Source of the DNA: Actinomycetospora sp.
GTDB taxonomy: Bacteria > Actinomycetota > Actinomycetes > Mycobacteriales > Pseudonocardiaceae
Assembly (NCBI GenBank): GCA_025925615.1
Contig: JAICLN010000120.1
Coordinates: 1 to 10,434, forward strand
DNA length: 10,434 nt
Direction: 5' to 3'
Numbering within the stretch: position 1 is the first letter of the stretch; every line of letters begins with the position of its first letter. The position numbers and the translations under genes were made by a program. The notes below the pieces were generated by a model. It saw nothing but the letters and a program-made list of their open reading frames with translations. It was not told where the DNA came from and ran no database searches. This document shows positions 566 to 10,380 of this stretch, one piece after another.

Positions 566-1735
566 TCAGGACACGGTCACCTCGAGGTGCTCCAGCCCCC
601 GCAGCCCGTTGTTGAGCAGCGGGCGGGATCCGACGACCTCGAACCGCTCGACCCGGTCGGCCAACCGCTCCAGCAGCGCCGACATCTCCAGCCGCGCGAG
701 GTGCATGCCCACGCACACGTGCTCGCCGCGGCCGAACGCGAGGTGGTCGGAGGGCTTGCGGGTGATGTCGAACCGGTCCGGGTCGGGGTACTTGCGCTCG
801 TCGCGGTTGGCCGAGCCGTAGAGCAGGGCGACCCGGCTGCCGGCGGGCAGCGGCACCCCGTCGATCTCGTGGTCCTCGGTGAGCACGCGCGTGAACTGCG
901 GGACCGAGGTCTCCATGCGCAGCGACTCATTGATCGCGTGCGGGATCCAGGAGCGATCGGCGCGCAGGAGTTCCCACTGGTCGGGGTGCGCCGCGAACAG
1001 CGCGATCATCGAGGTGATCCCGAGGATCGTGGTGTCCAGGCTCGGGGTGACGTAGTCGAGCATCATCACCGGGCACTTCTCGCGGGGCATCTCGCCCCGG
1101 TCGGCCGCCTGGTAGAGGTGCGCGGCCCAGCCGTCGGGGTCGATGTTGCCGGGGACGGCCTCGTTCTGGGCGTACGCGAGGAACTCCTCGACCTGCGGCA
1201 TCGCGTCCTGGAAGCGCTGGTTGGCCGGGCCCTGGACGTCCCAGATGGCCTCCGCCCACTGGAGCATCTTGCCGCGATGGCCCTCGCCCAGGCCGACGAG
1301 CTTGGAGACCACCGTTGACGGCAGGTGCTCGGCCAGCTCCGTCGCGACGTCGAAGCGCCCCCGCGCCACGAGCTTCCCGACGACGTGGTCGGCCTCCTCC
1401 TCGATCGTCGGCGTGATCTCGCGCATCCGGTCCGGGCGGAGCGGCCGGCCGAGGACCGAGCGCATCATCGTGTGGTCCGGCGGGTCGCTGCACAGCGTGA
1501 TGCCCTCGAGCGTGGCGTTCAGGCCCTCGTCGACGAAGACGCTCTTCGCCGAGGAGAACGTCTTCCAGTCCATGAGCGCCGCGCGCACGTCGGCGTACCG
1601 CGGCAGCGCGTAGTGCCCGTGGCGGGCCATCTCGACGACGGGCCCGAGGTCCCGCAGCGTCCGGTAGATCGGGTACGGGTCGATGCGGGCGTCGTCGGCG
1701 AACAGGTCGACGTCGCTGACCGGGATGTCCGGCAC
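566..1735 (-). CDS. Cytochrome P450, bacterial class I type (first of two)
   Basis: A complete 389-residue soluble heme monooxygenase, normal in length for bacterial P450s. It would hydroxylate a small hydrophobic substrate with electrons from a ferredoxin and reductase, neither encoded here. Seen: the I-helix stretch DYVTPSLDTTILGI at 227-240; the ExxR motif E270-S-L-R273; the heme loop FGRGEHVCVG at 334-343, with Cys341 as the axial ligand. The usual (A/G)Gx(D/E)T of the I-helix is here P231-S232-L-D234-T235, keeping the acid-alcohol pair but not the glycine. The start is GTG at 1733-1735, with CGGAGG (1740-1745) only four bases upstream. It is divergent from the antiporter gene and convergent with the reductase, so it is probably transcribed alone. 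The P450 assignment is certain; subfamily and substrate cannot be told from sequence alone. Confidence 0.96.
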   Translation of the reverse strand: MPDIPVSDVDLFADDARIDPYPIYRTLRDLGPVVEMARHGHYALPRYADVRAALMDWKTFSSAKSVFVDEGLNATLEGITLCSDPPDHTMMRSVLGRPLRPDRMREITPTIEEEADHVVGKLVARGRFDVATELAEHLPSTVVSKLVGLGEGHRGKMLQWAEAIWDVQGPANQRFQDAMPQVEEFLAYAQNEAVPGNIDPDGWAAHLYQAADRGEMPREKCPVMMLDYVTPSLDTTILGITSMIALFAAHPDQWELLRADRSWIPHAINESLRMETSVPQFTRVLTEDHEIDGVPLPAGSRVALLYGSANRDERKYPDPDRFDITRKPSDHLAFGRGEHVCVGMHLARLEMSALLERLADRVERFEVVGSRPLLNNGLRGLEHLEVTVS

Positions 1736-3897: not shown

Positions 3898-4037
3898 ATC
3901 CTCGCGACTACCCCTCCCGATCGAGCCGTCCATCACCAGCCCGAGGGCGTGATCGCGACTCCGGCGGCGCGTCCGAGCGTCAGTTGGGCGTGTCGCCGCC
4001 GAGATCGTGATCATGCCGGGTGCCGGCCGCCGGCCCC

Positions 4038-4170
4038 GAGCGCGTTCGAGCGAAGGGCACCCTCGCTCGATGGAGCCGCCCGTGGGTGCCCCTCGCCGGT
4101 ACGCCGACCGTCGAGCGCGTTCCGACGGTGGGCGCCCCTCGGTGATCTGGTCGAGTGAAGGTGCCCTTCG
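4038..4170. repeat. Cluster of short inverted and direct repeats
   Basis: CGAAGGGCACCCTCGCTCGA at 4051-4070 and the reverse complement of 4151-4170 match at 18 of 20 bases, exactly 100 bases apart. The first copy is itself a hairpin (4046-4070, 11-bp stem with one bulged A). Between them, GTGGGYGCCCCTCG occurs at 4082-4095 and 4128-4141 (13 of 14), GAGCGCGTTC occurs at 4038-4047 and 4113-4122, and ACCGTCG at 4107-4113 pairs perfectly with 4123-4129. The cluster sits between converging transcription units, so it might terminate transcription from both sides or be the remains of a small repeat element. No target duplication is seen at its edges. Confidence 0.7.
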
Positions 4171-4242
4171 TCCAGTACGCGGCCCCGCGCGCACGACACA
4201 CCCGCCCGACCTGCTCGCCCGCGGCCGTGCGTTGCAACGGGC

Positions 4243-4664: not shown

Positions 4665-5807
4665 CTACAGTCCGCCGCGCTTGACCAGCTGGGCGGCGAT
4701 GACGTTGCGCTGGATCTCGTTGGTGCCCTCCCCGACGATCATCAGCGGGGCGTCGCGGAAGTAGCGCTCGACGTCGTACTCCGTCGAGTAGCCGTACCCG
4801 CCGTGGATGCGCACCGCGTTGAGCGCGACCTCCATCGCGATCTCCGAGGTGAAGAGCTTGGCCATGCCGGCCTCCATGTCGCTGCGCTCCCCGGCGTCGT
4901 ACTTCTCGGCCGCGTGCAGGATCAGCTGGCGCGCAGCGGTGATCTTGGTGCCCATGTCCGCGAGGTAGTTCCCGATCGACTGGTGCTGCCAGATCGGCTT
5001 TCCGAACGCCTCGCGCTGCTGGGCGTAGGCCAGCGCGTCCTCGAACGCCGCCGTCGCGACCCCGAGGGCGCGGGAGGCGACCTGGATGCGGCCGGTCTCC
5101 AGGCCCCGCATCATCTGGGTGAAGCCGCGGCCCTCGATCCCGCCGAGCACCGCGTCGGCCGGCACCTCCATGTCGGTGAAGGCGAGTTCGCAGGCCTCGA
5201 CGCCCTTGTAGCCCAGCTTGCCGAGGTCCTTGGAGATCTCCAGACCCGGGCCGTGCTCGACGAGCAGGATCGACACGCCGCGGTGCTTGGGCTCCGCGGC
5301 GGGGTCGGTCTTGACCATCAGCGCGATCAGGCCGGAGCGGCGGGCGTTGGAGATCCAGGTCTTGGCCCCGTTGACGACGTAGGCGTCCCCGGACCGCCGG
5401 GCGGTGGTGGTCATGGCCTGCAGGTCGGAGCCGCCGCCGGGCTCGGTGAGCGCCATCGTGGCGCGCAGCTCGCCGGTGGCCATCCGCGGCAGGTAGCGGT
5501 CCTGCTGCTCGCGCGTGCCGAACTCCACGAGCAGCTTCGACACGACCGTGTGCCCGCCCATCGCCCCGGCCAGCGACATCCAGCCGCGGGCGAGCTCGGT
5601 GGTGACCAGCGCGTAGCAGGGCATCGACACCGGCGCCTCGCCCCACGGCTCGGGGACGGCGAGCCCGAAGATGCCGAGCTCCTTCATCGCCTCGATCAAC
5701 GCCTCCGGGTAGGTGTTGGCGTGCTCGAGCTCCGACACCACCGGCTTGACGTCCTTGTCGACGAACGCCCGGACCGTCTCGACGACGAACCGCTCCTCCG
5801 GATCCAC
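4665..5807 (-). CDS. Acyl-CoA dehydrogenase
   Basis: A 380-residue FAD flavoprotein of normal family length. It would be cytoplasmic, probably tetrameric, oxidising an acyl thioester to its 2,3-enoyl form and passing electrons to ETF. Seen: the family signature ALTEPGGGSDLQA at 119-131; NGAKTWISNA at 146-155; the R265-EAFGKPIWQHQSIGNYLADM region of the C-terminal helical domain; RIHGGYGYSTEYDVERYFRD at 333-352; GEGTNEIQR at 359-367, where Glu360 is the catalytic base position. I chose GTG 5805-5807 because AGGAAGGGA lies nine bases upstream and the protein then starts DPEERF. The frame is open to a GTG at 5852, but that adds a basic 15-residue leader not typical of the family. The gene follows the small ORF by 41 bases on the same strand. 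It could serve fatty or branched-acid catabolism or the adjacent pathway; the sequence does not show which. Confidence 0.95.
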   Translation of the reverse strand: MDPEERFVVETVRAFVDKDVKPVVSELEHANTYPEALIEAMKELGIFGLAVPEPWGEAPVSMPCYALVTTELARGWMSLAGAMGGHTVVSKLLVEFGTREQQDRYLPRMATGELRATMALTEPGGGSDLQAMTTTARRSGDAYVVNGAKTWISNARRSGLIALMVKTDPAAEPKHRGVSILLVEHGPGLEISKDLGKLGYKGVEACELAFTDMEVPADAVLGGIEGRGFTQMMRGLETGRIQVASRALGVATAAFEDALAYAQQREAFGKPIWQHQSIGNYLADMGTKITAARQLILHAAEKYDAGERSDMEAGMAKLFTSEIAMEVALNAVRIHGGYGYSTEYDVERYFRDAPLMIVGEGTNEIQRNVIAAQLVKRGGL

Positions 5808-5816
5808 AGCCTGATG

Positions 5817-5825
5817 TCCCTTCCT
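5817..5825 (-). promoter_or_regulatory. Ribosome binding site deciding the acyl-CoA dehydrogenase start
   Basis: On the - strand AGGAAGGGA is followed nine bases later by GTG at 5805-5807. The longer option, GTG at 5850-5852, overlaps the upstream stop but lacks a comparable site. Confidence 0.7.
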
Positions 5826-5848
5826 CGGACGGGTGCGACGGCGGGCCC

Positions 5849-6079
5849 TCACCGGGCCCGGTAGGCCTGCAGCGCGACACGCCGAGCTCCGACCAGGACC
5901 AGCTCGCGCCAGCTCGGCTCCAGTCGCGCCTCGCGCCGGAGGACCTCGCCGAGGTCCCGGTACGCGGCGAACACGTCGGGCAACACCTGCTCCAGCATGC
6001 CGGTGAATCCCGGCTCGCGGGCCTCGAGGTCGTCCCAGGAGCGGTGAACATCAGGAACGCCGGGACAGGACGGCCCCAT
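5849..6079 (-). CDS. Small ORF, possibly truncated AhpD/carboxymuconolactone decarboxylase-like protein
   Basis: A 76-residue frame from an ATG at 6079 to a TGA at 5849-5851. The stretch LPDVFAAYRDLGEVLRREARLEPSWRELVLVGARRVALQAY resembles the first helices of the AhpD/CMD fold, which normally continue into a CxxC or Glu/His active site. Here the protein stops at AYRAR before any such site. From about residue 12 the third codon positions are strongly GC, as in real genes of this window; the first ten codons are less so. An internal ATG at 5996-5998 could be the true start. GGGAG abuts the first ATG, too close for a good site. The gene is 90 bases downstream of the GNAT gene and 41 bases before the dehydrogenase start, so it is probably cotranscribed. 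It may be a gene remnant; the family call is tentative. Confidence 0.4.
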   Translation of the reverse strand: MGPSCPGVPDVHRSWDDLEAREPGFTGMLEQVLPDVFAAYRDLGEVLRREARLEPSWRELVLVGARRVALQAYRAR

Positions 6080-6169
6080 CTCCCGGACCGAGGGTGAACA
6101 CCTTCGGCGGCAGCCTGTCCGAGGGTCGCCTGCACGGGATGGGGCACCTCATCGAGGCGGTGAGGCCAC

Positions 6170-7316
6170 CTACATGAAACTGGCGTCCCCGTCGTACTCC
6201 GACGGATCCCAGACGTCCGGCGTCGCCAGCTCGGCCTCGAGCTGCGGGTCCGAGGTGAGGTAGTAGAACGACCACGCGGCCTTCGTGATCCGGTACGGCG
6301 CGGCCCGGTCGAAGGCCGCGAACTTCGGGAGGTCGCAGCCGTTGTGCTCCAGCAGGCCGAAGCCCTCGCGGGCGGAGCGGGCCGCGGCTGCACGGACCAG
6401 GCCGGGCAGCAGGTCGACCGCAGTGTCCACCGTCTGGTAGTCGACGATCTTCATGCTGCGCATGCCCGACGGGCGGTCGTACACCGTGACCACGCAGAAA
6501 GCCCGGATCTTCCCGGCCCGTTCGGCGGTGTAGACCCACAGCCGCCCGGAGCGCAGCAGGAGCCGGTAGTGCCACTCGAGGGTCGCGCGGTCCCGCACGG
6601 CGAGCAGCGTGTCGGGGTCCCGGTCCCGGAGCTCCTCCCAGAAGGCGTCGAAGCGGTCGTCGAAGCCGCGGCGCTCGACGACGTCGACACCGGCGGGCGT
6701 GGCCGGGAGCGAGCGCGTCCGCACTCCCTCCTTGACCGCGAGCGCCGCGGCGGCCGGCAGCGCGAGGGCTCCGGCGGCCGGGACCCCCTTCATCGACAGC
6801 ACCTCCCGCGCGAAGGCGCGGCGGTTCGTCACCAGGTACGCCGCCCGGCCCCAGTCACCGAGCGGCACCGGGGTGCCGTAGGCCTGGCCAGATCGGGGTC
6901 GCCCCGGCGCCGACGTTGGAGCTCAGGACGACGTCGGCGCCGTCCTGGTTGAAGTACTCGTCCATCAGCAGCGCCGCGTAGCTGCGGTGCTCGGCCGTGG
7001 CCGCCCACGCGAGCCCGGTGGCGCCGATCTTCTCCTCGCCCCGGTGGACGTAGGGCGAAGGCACGTTGGTGACCGATCCGACGACGGCCCCGTCGGCGTC
7101 CTCCAGGACCCACCCCACCGGCCAGTGCCCCGCGAGCCGCGGCCACAGGGGGTGCTCCTCGAACAGGGCGCGCCGGTCCTCGGGCGTGAAGATGTTCTTC
7201 AGGTACGCCGACTCCAGCCGGTACATGGCGGGGAAGTCGTCGAACGTGGCCTCCCGCAGTTCCGGGGGTTCGACGACGGGTGCGGGTGCCGCCGCCGTGG
7301 TGGGTTCGGTGCTCAC
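6170..7316 (-). pseudogene. GNAT-family acyltransferase split by a frameshift
   Basis: The gene starts at GTG 7314-7316, overlapping the P450 stop by GTGA. Its first frame gives 143 good residues: LREATFDDFPAMYRLESAYL, HPLWPRLAGHWPVGWVLEDA, YVHRGEEKIGATGLAW and SSNVGAGATPIW. It then runs into nonsense and a TGA at 6855. The second frame resumes at 6886 with QAYGTPVPLGDWGRAAYLVT and continues 238 residues to the TAG at 6170. Joined, they make one protein of about 381 residues. The total is 1147 bases, one more than a whole number of codons, which fits a one-base insertion near 6884-6890 (TGG-C-CAG). The first half has the GNAT look: VVGSVTNV strand, then GLAW...EHRSYAALLMDEYF in place of the acyl-CoA binding loop. 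The donor and acceptor are unknown; the context suggests acylation or release of the carrier-bound amino acid. A sequencing error would make it intact. Confidence 0.8.
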
Positions 7317-8557
7317 GTGCCCGACACCGCCAGGGGGAGAGCGGTGAGTCCGCGCAGCCCGAGGTTCTCCCGCCAGGTCAGCGGTTCGTCGATGAGCTCG
7401 ATGTGGGGGAGCCGCCGCAGCAGGGTCTCGAAGCCGATCCGGCCCTCGAGGCGGGCCAGTCCCGCTCCGAAGCAGAAGTGCGCGCCCCACGCGAACGCCA
7501 CGTGGCGGTTGTCGGGGCGGGCGAGGTCGAGCCGGTCGGGGTCGTGGAAGCGGTGCGGGTCGCGGTTGGCCGATCCCATCACCGCGATCACGGCCTGCTT
7601 GTGCCCGATCTGTTTGCCGCCGAGCTCGAGGTCCCGCGGCGCGAGGCGTGCGGTGTGCTGGCTGGGGCTCTCGAAGCGCAGCAGCTCCTCGACCGCGGAG
7701 TCCGTCAGCTCGGGCGAGGCGCGCAGCCGGGCCAGGGCTTCGGGGTCGCGCAGCAACGCGAGCAGACCGTTGCCGAACAGGTTGGTGGTGGTCTCGAGAC
7801 CGCCGACCATGGTGACGATGCAGTTGGCGACGATCTCCTCGGTGCTGAACCGGTCGCCGTCGACCTCGGCGGCGATGTAGGCCGACACCAGCCCGTCGAC
7901 GGGCTGCTCGCGCTGCGCCTCGACCTCGGCGGTGAAGTAGGCGACGAGGTTCTGCACGGCCTCGAGCACGCCGCCGAGCCGTTCGGGGTTGTGCTGGAAG
8001 TTGCCCAGCATCTCGGCGAACGTCGTCGACCACCGCTTGAGGGCCATGTGGTCCTCGACCGGCACCCCGAGCAGGTCGGTGGTGACCATGGCGGGCAGCG
8101 GGTCGGCGAAGTCGGCCATCAGGTCCATGCGGCCGTCGCCGCGGGCGAGGACGTCGTCGAGTAGCTGCTCACCGATCTCGGCGATGCGCCCGTCGAGGAC
8201 CGCCACCCGCGCCGGGGTGAACGCCGCGCTCGCGAGCCGCCGGACCCGGGGGTGCTCCGGGGCGTCCATGAACAGCATCATCCGCACCATCAGCTCGGCG
8301 ACCGGCGCGACCTCGGGGACCCCGAGCAGCTCGAAGTACTCCGGCGGCGGGGTGCGCCGCGCCGAGAACCGCTTGAGCACGGTCGTGACGTCGTCGTAGC
8401 CGGTGACGATCCATGCGTGCAGGTAGGGGTCCCAGTGCACCGGGTCGGTGGTGCGCAGGTTCTCGTAGAGCGGGTACGGGTCGGCGAGGACCTCGGGGTC
8501 GAGCAGCTCGGCGTAGCTGCGCGTCTCCTTCACCACGGCGCCACCCGGCTCGGTCAC
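7313..8557 (-). CDS. Cytochrome P450 coupled to the NRPS didomain gene
   Basis: A complete 414-residue P450. Seen: MDAPEHPRVRRLASAAFTPA at 97-116 (C-helix region); I-helix VGGLETTT at 251-258, with Glu255-Thr256 as the acid-alcohol pair for oxygen activation; E291-L-L-R294; heme loop FAWGAHFCFG at 355-364, with Cys362 as the ligand and Ala where Gly is usual after Phe. The start is GTG 8555-8557, which overlaps the NRPS stop (GTGA). AGGAGGT lies six bases upstream, inside the NRPS gene. Its own stop overlaps the GNAT start in the same way, so the three genes should be translated together. From known systems (NovH/NovI, the nikkomycin and skyllamycin P450s) I infer hydroxylation of the aminoacyl group held on the upstream carrier domain. 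A product-tailoring role is the alternative. The partner ferredoxin is not in the window. Confidence 0.96.
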   Translation of the reverse strand: MTEPGGAVVKETRSYAELLDPEVLADPYPLYENLRTTDPVHWDPYLHAWIVTGYDDVTTVLKRFSARRTPPPEYFELLGVPEVAPVAELMVRMMLFMDAPEHPRVRRLASAAFTPARVAVLDGRIAEIGEQLLDDVLARGDGRMDLMADFADPLPAMVTTDLLGVPVEDHMALKRWSTTFAEMLGNFQHNPERLGGVLEAVQNLVAYFTAEVEAQREQPVDGLVSAYIAAEVDGDRFSTEEIVANCIVTMVGGLETTTNLFGNGLLALLRDPEALARLRASPELTDSAVEELLRFESPSQHTARLAPRDLELGGKQIGHKQAVIAVMGSANRDPHRFHDPDRLDLARPDNRHVAFAWGAHFCFGAGLARLEGRIGFETLLRRLPHIELIDEPLTWRENLGLRGLTALPLAVSGT

Positions 8558-10380
8558 GGGGTGACCTCCTGCGCGCGGGTGATCTCGGTGGCGAGCGCGG
8601 AGACGGTGGGTCCGCGGAACAGCTGGCGCAGCGCCAGCTTCACCCCGTACCGCTGCCGGATCCGGGAGATCACCTGCATGGCGAGCATGGAGTGTCCGCC
8701 GAGCAGGAAGATGTTGTCGTCCACGCCGATCTCGGGCAGGTTCAGCAGCCCGGCGATCAGCTCGCCCAGCCACGCCCGGACCTCGACGACGTCCTCGCCC
8801 GCCGACGACACGGCCGGCGCCGCTGCGGCGACGGGCTGCGGGAGCGCCGCCCGGTCGAGCTTGCCGTTCGGCGTCGTCGGCAGGGCGTCGAGGGCGACGA
8901 CGTGGGCGGGCACCATGTAGTCCGGCAACTGCGCCGCCAGGAACCCGCGCACGTCGGCCGCCGACGGTGGCGCCGCCGGGTCGGACGCGACGACGTAGGC
9001 CGCCAGCTCCCGCTCCCCGGACTCGTCGCCGGTCACGGCCACGGTCCCGGCCCGGACCCCGGGAGCCTGGGTCAGCCATGCGGTGATCTCGGCCGGCTCG
9101 ATCCGATAGCCACGGATCTTGACCTGGTCGTCGAGGCGGCCGAGGAACACCAGCCGGCCGTCGTCGAGGCGACACACCCGATCCCCGGTGCGGTACCCGC
9201 GCACCGCCGACCCGCCCGTCTCGCCGGCCGGGACGTGCACGGTGACGAACCGGTCCGCGGTCCGCGCCGGGTCGTGCCGGTAGCCGCGGCCCACGTGCGG
9301 GCCGATCAGGACCAGCTCCCCGGGCTCGCCGTCGGCGACCGGTGCCAGCGCCTCGTCGCACAGCAGCGCCACGGTGCCCGGGATCGGGCGACCGATCGAC
9401 GGCGGGCCGGTGTGGTCACCCTGTGGGGCGACCACCCCTGACGTCGCGACCACCGTGGCCTCGGTCGGGCCGTAGTTGTTGACCACCGTGAACGGCAGAC
9501 CCGGTACCGGGCGGCGGGTGAGCCGCTCCGCCCCGGTCAGCAACGTGCGCAACGCGGTCCGCTCGGGCCAGTCGGCGACCATCAACTGCTCGGCCAGCAA
9601 CGTCGGCGCGAACCCGATCGTGATCCGCTGGGCGACCAGCCAGTCCTGCAGCAGCGCCGGCGAACGGTGGGTCCCCTCGTCCGCGACGTGCAGCGCCGCC
9701 CCCACGGCCAGCGGCGGCCAGATCTCCCACACCGCCGCGTCGAACCCCAGCCCGGCCACCTGCGAGGCACGGTCGTCGGCGGTCACCCCGAACGCCGCGT
9801 TGTGCCAGTCGACCAGGTGCGCCAGGTTCGCGTGGGTGATCTCCACGCCCTTCGGGCGCCCGGTGCTGCCCGAGGTGTAGATGACGTAGGCCAGGTCGTC
9901 GGGCTCCGACGGCGCCGCGACCGGCGGCCCGGCCGCCGCGGCGTCCGCCCCGTCCACCTCGATCACCGACCACGACCCCCGCGGGACCGCGCCCGCGTGG
10001 TCGCGGTCGGTCAGCACCGCCGCCGCGGCGGCGTCACCGAGGATGTAGGCGATCCGGTCGGCCGGCGTCGCCGGGTCCAGCGGCAGATACGCCGCCCCGG
10101 CCCGCATGGCCGCGAGGGCCGCAACGACGTAGCGCGCGCCCCGCGGCAGCAGGACGGCCACGCACGAGCCCTGACCGGCGCCCGAGGCGCGCAGCGCCCT
10201 CGCCCACCGGTCGGCCTGCGCGTCGAGCTCGGCGTAGGTGAGCTGCCCGTCCGCCGCCACCAGCGCGGGGCGGTCGGCCACGCTCTGCGCGAGGACCGCG
10301 ACGCGGGCCGGTACGGACGCGAAGGTCCCCGCGTCCGGCGTGCTCGAGGTGCTGGATCCCGCGATCGTCCCCGTGCTCAT
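8554..10380 (-). CDS. NRPS adenylation-peptidyl carrier didomain protein, leucine-type code
   Basis: A 608-residue cytosolic enzyme that adenylates an amino acid with ATP and loads it on its own phosphopantetheine arm. Adenylation motifs seen in order: LTYAELD 47-53; RAGAAYLPLDP 93-103; YTSGSTGRPKGVEITH 168-183; FDAAVWEIW 213-221; NNYGPTEATV 301-310; YRTGD 396-400; GRLDDQVKIRGYRIEPAEI 414-432; PNGKLDR 504-510. The carrier domain has LLGGHSMLAMQ at 559-569 with Ser564 as attachment site. By alignment to PheA I read the pocket as D214 A215 W218 F257 L281 G283 N302 V310 V311 K507, which I remember as a leucine code. There is no condensation, epimerisation or thioesterase domain; after a 20-residue leader it is A-T only. 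The ATG at 10380 has only weak GGCGG upstream. It is the first gene of the visible operon, with the P450 start overlapping its stop. Confidence 0.97.
   Translation of the reverse strand: MSTGTIAGSSTSSTPDAGTFASVPARVAVLAQSVADRPALVAADGQLTYAELDAQADRWARALRASGAGQGSCVAVLLPRGARYVVAALAAMRAGAAYLPLDPATPADRIAYILGDAAAAAVLTDRDHAGAVPRGSWSVIEVDGADAAAAGPPVAAPSEPDDLAYVIYTSGSTGRPKGVEITHANLAHLVDWHNAAFGVTADDRASQVAGLGFDAAVWEIWPPLAVGAALHVADEGTHRSPALLQDWLVAQRITIGFAPTLLAEQLMVADWPERTALRTLLTGAERLTRRPVPGLPFTVVNNYGPTEATVVATSGVVAPQGDHTGPPSIGRPIPGTVALLCDEALAPVADGEPGELVLIGPHVGRGYRHDPARTADRFVTVHVPAGETGGSAVRGYRTGDRVCRLDDGRLVFLGRLDDQVKIRGYRIEPAEITAWLTQAPGVRAGTVAVTGDESGERELAAYVVASDPAAPPSAADVRGFLAAQLPDYMVPAHVVALDALPTTPNGKLDRAALPQPVAAAAPAVSSAGEDVVEVRAWLGELIAGLLNLPEIGVDDNIFLLGGHSMLAMQVISRIRQRYGVKLALRQLFRGPTVSALATEITRAQEVTP
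8564..8570 (-). promoter_or_regulatory. Ribosome binding site for the second P450, inside the NRPS gene
   Basis: AGGAGGT on the - strand, six bases before the GTG at 8555-8557. It lies in the last codons of the NRPS gene. The frame is also open far upstream, antisense to no gene but out of frame with the NRPS, so this site is what defines the P450 start. Confidence 0.85.

Follow-up and report, generated by a model that had tools for sequence, protein, structure and literature searches.

A three-gene cassette of Actinomycetospora and bacteria of other phyla joins a leucine-type loading and probable oxidation pair to a tandem-GNAT protein, a candidate carrier-dependent aminoacyltransferase

Introduction

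NovH/NovI and NikP1/NikQ are pairs of an adenylation–carrier (A-T) didomain and a cytochrome P450 that oxidise an amino acid bound to the carrier. Here we analyse a 10,434-nucleotide stretch of Actinomycetospora DNA (contig JAICLN010000120.1; the whole stretch is called the window below), in which such a pair is followed by a gene for a GNAT-type acyltransferase. The cassette resembles NovH/NovI and NikP1/NikQ in having a free-standing A-T and a P450 predicted to act on a carrier-bound amino acid, whereas its pocket is of leucine type, it has no thioesterase and its third gene encodes a GNAT. We propose, with confidence about evenly divided, that the three genes form a self-contained aminoacyl-transfer pathway, in which leucine would be loaded, oxidised on the carrier and then passed by the GNAT to an acceptor amine.

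Adenylating enzymes with carriers also supply acyl or aminoacyl groups in D-alanylation, where DltA/DltC provide an aminoacyl group for a surface polymer, and in the TIGR03098/TIGR03099 families (exosortase-A-associated ligase and decarboxylase). Unlike the cassette, neither system has a P450, and both use other transferases (DltB/DltD and FemAB-like proteins, respectively). The nearest described precedent is the PlyC/PlyQ/PlyR/PlyS set of polyoxypeptin, for which the source, which also names NikQ, proposes that a discrete A domain, carrier and P450 make beta-hydroxyleucine and that a thioesterase releases it for a large nonribosomal peptide synthetase (NRPS) (PMC3943440). The Ply set shares the A domain, carrier and P450 with the cassette, which has a GNAT in place of the proposed thioesterase. 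Leucine loading with oxidation on the carrier is therefore of an already known kind, and the GNAT ending is the new part. No description of the GNAT ending, the four-phylum spread, the exchange with condensation modules or the glycan link was recognised among the open-access papers listed, which does not in itself show that none exists.

Results

The window is an entire contig (C171) of a 3.5 Mb assembly in 382 contigs that is 60% complete, and on the upstream side the contig ends only 54 bases from the start of the A-T gene. The cassette comprises:

8554..10380, minus strand: A-T didomain, 608 residues (PF00501, PF13193, PF00550); leucine-type adenylation domain and carrier domain with the GGHSML serine, the pocket code and carrier motif being kept in relatives
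7313..8557, minus strand: cytochrome P450, 414 residues (PF00067), aligning at 54–94% identity with the P450s of five other cassettes
6170..7316, minus strand: gene for a tandem-GNAT acyltransferase, recognised from its frames, profile matches to two parts, its relatives and a model of the intact sister protein

A first-pass annotation of this DNA had described three genes joined by GTGA overlaps. Both overlaps were read, at 8557-8554 (A-T/P450) and 7316-7313 (P450/GNAT), the didomain and the P450 carry the Pfam domains expected of them, and Pfam shows neither a condensation nor a thioesterase domain in the didomain, as had been stated. The third gene is of GNAT type, as claimed, but it is not one open frame. 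The condensation domain that marks a modular NRPS is absent from the window cassette. Those close relatives of the window GNAT and P450 that are named come from Actinomycetospora.

A protein search with the C-terminal part of the GNAT, in which the 8,000 best candidates were scored, yielded 83 proteins including the window's own piece; 82 of the 83 lack a Pfam domain, and the names among the matches listed are all 'hypothetical protein'. Scanning one genome per species gave nine GNAT loci (L003 and L004, the same Actinomycetospora locus, being counted once), and at five of these an A-T and a P450 gene lie upstream on the same strand, adjoining each other and the GNAT gene. Identities to the window proteins are:

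L004, Actinomycetospora: A-T 72%, P450 94%
L005, Roseomonas: A-T 47% (contig-end part), P450 61%
L007, Bryobacterales: A-T 48%, P450 62%
L008, Isosphaeraceae: A-T 55%, P450 70%
L009, an acidobacterium: A-T 50%, P450 54%

The five cassettes span four phyla. Since the same order recurs at five other loci, the arrangement is more than a chance one. A seventh genome (G989, locus L048) has a split version, the pair and the GNAT lying about 4 kb apart on opposite strands, and at L010 the carrier and the adenylating enzyme are separate proteins, with no P450 match.

The GNAT family is rare. It was matched in 2 of 61 genomes around the window (its own included; both belong to the 18 genomes of the genus), in 3 of 343 Planctomycetota (one close), in 3 of 396 Acidobacteriota and in 2 of 299 genomes of the Roseomonas family (one close), while 396 Actinomycetota gave one close match, the window itself, and 16 distant ones, all in family f32. 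Of 72,556 plasmid records, none matched the L008 GNAT; the L005 P450 had 1,262 plasmid-record matches, the ten listed being 40–45% identical and the first of them a gene on a Nostoc plasmid, flanked by an AMP-binding gene and by polyketide synthase/NRPS genes. Beside the distant GNATs lie genes for adenylating enzymes and carriers but none for a P450, in a module close to the TIGR03098/TIGR03099 families. In the seven of 16 f32 genomes fetched, this module recurs at L040, L041, L043, L044 and L046 as distant GNAT, carrier, ligase and pyridoxal-phosphate decarboxylase near exosortase-A-associated families, with FemAB-like proteins at L041, L044 and L046 (the last by NCBIfam scan, the others by eye).

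The ten substrate-pocket positions of the A domain were assigned by GrsA numbering. They read DAWFLGNVVK in the window, L004, L008, L009 and L048 (five of the six fully readable copies) and DAWFLGNVLK in L007, and the readable part of L005 is NVVK. This code is in print: it occurs in four predicted leucine domains of the scytocyclamide synthetases, one possibly gapped (PMC7524897), and stands first among the commonest codes of Leu, Ile and Val domains in a survey of 2,051 A domains (PMC12283262). The leucine-type pocket of the first-pass annotation is thus borne out, and leucine loading by the A-T is well supported from its sequence; the A domain would activate leucine and load its own carrier domain. 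As in pairs of the NovH/NovI kind, the A-T stands alone with an amino-acid pocket, and the adjoining P450 keeps the heme cysteine, the ExxR motif and an ETT I-helix segment (acid-alcohol pair), in agreement with the pairing claimed at first. The P450 is likely to hydroxylate the carrier-bound leucine, most probably at the beta position.

The GNAT gene of the window is interrupted: the part that begins at 7316 stops at 6855, and the part that runs to 6170 is in a different frame. A profile of the intact relatives matches 7313-6885 at positions 2-144 and 6886-6173 at positions 144-381; the coding sequence for a whole protein of about 382 residues is therefore interrupted by a single change of frame near 6885. 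Differences from the sister gene amount to 0.31–0.35 at third codon positions and 0.11–0.17 at first and second positions, and because both halves keep this coding pattern, the break should be recent or an assembly artefact. If the break is not an assembly error, the window copy may be unable to complete the pathway. It is very unlikely, in our judgement, that the window carries a decaying remnant, with a GNAT pseudogene and an A-T/P450 pair no longer of use; the frame change and the occurrence of a GNAT match in only 2 of the 18 genus genomes searched (own included) speak for such decay, whereas the coding pattern of both halves, the 92.5% identity of the P450 to the sister gene and the possibility of a one-base slip in a 382-contig assembly speak against it.

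Intact relatives exist, and the fold was examined on a model of one, the sister protein P0007. Over its whole length the model matches N-myristoyltransferase and MAB_4324 at 9–12% identity (VIA-align), and two GNAT domains per chain are indicated by the model and by sub-threshold Pfam GNAT matches to both halves. No N-myristoyltransferase family model matched P0007 or the L008 GNAT (NCBIfam at 1e-3; Pfam at 1), and the absence of FemX and mycothiol synthase from the 50 fold entries listed decides nothing. Two fused GNAT domains are thus shared with N-myristoyltransferase, MAB_4324 and mycothiol synthase (the last as named in PMC12219266); the cassette protein differs from the first two by its low identity and by its proposed donor, a carrier thioester.

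GNAT folds usually use acyl-coenzyme A (acyl-CoA), and the P-loop G-x-A is partly kept, so that acyl-CoA could still be the donor; both points weigh against transfer from the carrier. The GNAT would then N-acylate hydroxyleucine, either on the carrier or once freed, and the small N-acyl-hydroxyleucine would be released by hydrolysis or by another enzyme. The sub-threshold GNAT matches and the closest fold shown, N-myristoyltransferase solved with acyl-CoA, fit this scheme, which we nevertheless regard as unlikely: the three genes include no release domain, the distant GNATs accompany adenylating and carrier genes with no P450, and the neighbouring genes are often glycan-related.

What the GNAT seems to replace can be seen in the Acidobacteriota. 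The P450 family is large (1e-100 is passed by 7,817 of the 8,000 candidates scored, and the 120 listed all share at least 66% identity), and a search of 199 Acidobacteriota genomes at a limit of 1e-120 gave eight P450 places in seven genomes, two of them L009 and L048; the same search of 246 Planctomycetota gave the L008 pair only. At all six other acidobacterial places (L073-L078) an A-T with the identical code DAWFLGNVVK adjoins the P450 (46–50% and 59–65% identity to the window, respectively), and the pair is followed, not by a GNAT, of which there was no match in the fetched stretches, but by domains for condensation (C), adenylation (A), carrier (T) and thioesterase (TE) functions:

L074, L075, L077: C-A-T-TE
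L076: P450-C-A-T-TE fusion
L078: C-T-TE
L073: C-A-T (by eye)

The fusion at L076 fits action of the P450 on an assembly line. In an A-T tree of 12 rows, from which the partial A-T of L005 was left out, one branch (93/98, below the starred level) separates five GNAT-type from six NRPS-type rows, and L048, the one relative with a condensation gene adjoining its P450 as well as a nearby GNAT, groups with the NRPS side. Because sister pairs with the same code precede condensation modules and no GNAT, the GNAT seems to stand in for a condensation and release module; and since the same leucine-loading and oxidising pair precedes either a condensation module or a GNAT, leucyl transfer is therefore the likeliest job of the GNAT. 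We infer that the tandem GNAT would take the leucyl group, once oxidised, off the carrier and attach it to an acceptor amine. The first-pass annotation had left open whether hydroxyleucine was N-acylated or transferred; the exchange of the third gene and the P450-less distant GNATs beside adenylating and carrier genes favour the latter.

Three further observations concern the acidobacterial loci. L074-L077 represent a recurring two-module line, A-T(Leu)/P450/C-A-T-TE, with a second A code, DAMYVGGVSK, in L074, L075 and L077. G989 carries two A-T/P450 pairs, L048 near the GNAT and L078 before C-T-TE. The stand-alone condensation gene of L048 has no HHxxxD match.

These NRPS-type relatives raise the question of whether the pair, in the manner of NovH/NovI, supplies hydroxyleucine to an NRPS elsewhere in the genome, the GNAT being an acetyltransferase with an accessory or resistance role. 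C-A-T-TE modules do follow close relatives of the pair, the Ply set is a proposal of this kind (PMC3943440), and condensation domains occur elsewhere in genomes G010, G455, G456 and G457 and beside the pair in L048. Such a supply role is nonetheless quite improbable in our estimate, given that the Roseomonas cassette genome and the window assembly (60% complete) have no condensation match and that the GNAT is adjacent at five loci in four phyla. The same findings bear on the possibility, named at first as one that would overturn the cassette, that it is the edge of a larger NRPS cluster. This fails for the intact Actinomycetospora copy and for Roseomonas, because in G010 condensation domains were found only on contig C45, the cassette lying on C10, and in Roseomonas there were none; it could still hold for the Isosphaeraceae contig, for L048 and on the cut side of the window.

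Glycan-related genes surround the cassettes. Pfam scans of chosen flanking genes placed such genes near all six non-window cassettes (the five and L048). A GT4 gene lies directly upstream in L007, L008 and L009 (46–48% mutual identity), and a glycosyltransferase gene diverges from the A-T in L004. L005 has genes for export, a UDP-sugar dehydrogenase, a MurJ-like flippase and a Wzz-type protein on the opposite strand, and a phosphopantetheinyl transferase gene directly after the GNAT; L008 has Wzz-type, flippase and glycosyltransferase genes; and in L048 a PIG-L deacetylase and two glycosyltransferases adjoin the GNAT. At L006 and L011, which have the GNAT alone, a sugar transferase and a Wzz-type gene are present. 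The amine acceptor would most likely be an amino sugar belonging to a surface glycan such as an exopolysaccharide, a step less firmly suggested than the transfer itself.

The remainder of the window contains:

4665..5852, minus strand: acyl-CoA dehydrogenase (Pfam), judged to lie outside the cassette
5849-6148: open frame between the GNAT stop and the acyl-CoA dehydrogenase, with no Pfam match
4020-4190: dispersed repeat with inverted arms at 4051-4070 and 4151-4170, copies of which, at 74–78% DNA identity, occur in sister genomes and on at least seven further contigs of this assembly
566-1735, minus strand: a further P450 gene, distant from the cassette, whose product shares about 28% identity with the cassette P450

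The acyl-CoA dehydrogenase was considered as a fourth cassette gene and rejected, because its closest match in the sister genome G010 lies on contig C1, a different contig from the cassette.

Discussion

The first-pass annotation is partly confirmed in its observation of a three-gene cassette and partly supported in its interpretation; it overlooked that the GNAT frame is broken and that glycan genes lie near the relatives. The broken frame is itself a point against the aminoacyl-transfer pathway, and others stand beside it. Among the best 60 of 422 PDB entries for the P450, P450BioI ranks first and none is named as an amino-acid beta-hydroxylase. The P450 tree requires two changes and, with a long L009 branch, does not divide cleanly into GNAT and NRPS types. 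In L006 and L011 (contigs of less than 5 kb), and within 18 kb in L012 (GNAT 27% identical), the GNAT is accompanied by neither an A-T nor a P450 match, and NRPS genes lie about 9 kb from the A-T on the Isosphaeraceae contig. As to the glycan link, the six of six were counted against no random control, the window, cut short beside its A-T, has no glycan gene by Pfam, and the link is not exclusive, because sugar genes seem to lie near the NRPS-type loci L073, L075 and L076 as well, as judged by eye from protein starts.

A broader form of the proposal is put forward tentatively, as somewhat doubtful. The GNATs would constitute an unnamed family of aminoacyltransferases, built as tandem GNATs and dependent on a carrier protein, whose fold resembles that of N-myristoyltransferase and whose fixed C-terminal end may provide the catalytic base; in a hydroxyleucine line such a protein would have replaced the module for condensation and release, and it would place hydroxyleucine on amino sugars of surface polysaccharides in several phyla.

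If this is true, chemistry of the NRPS type, loading and then oxidation on a carrier, would serve glycan decoration, with a GNAT replacing the condensation domain, and a protein family now called hypothetical would gain a function. With its three enzymes the cassette would provide a compact way of making hydroxyleucyl conjugates, and the natural exchange of condensation module and GNAT after the same A-T/P450 pair would offer a system in which the rewiring of assembly lines could be studied.
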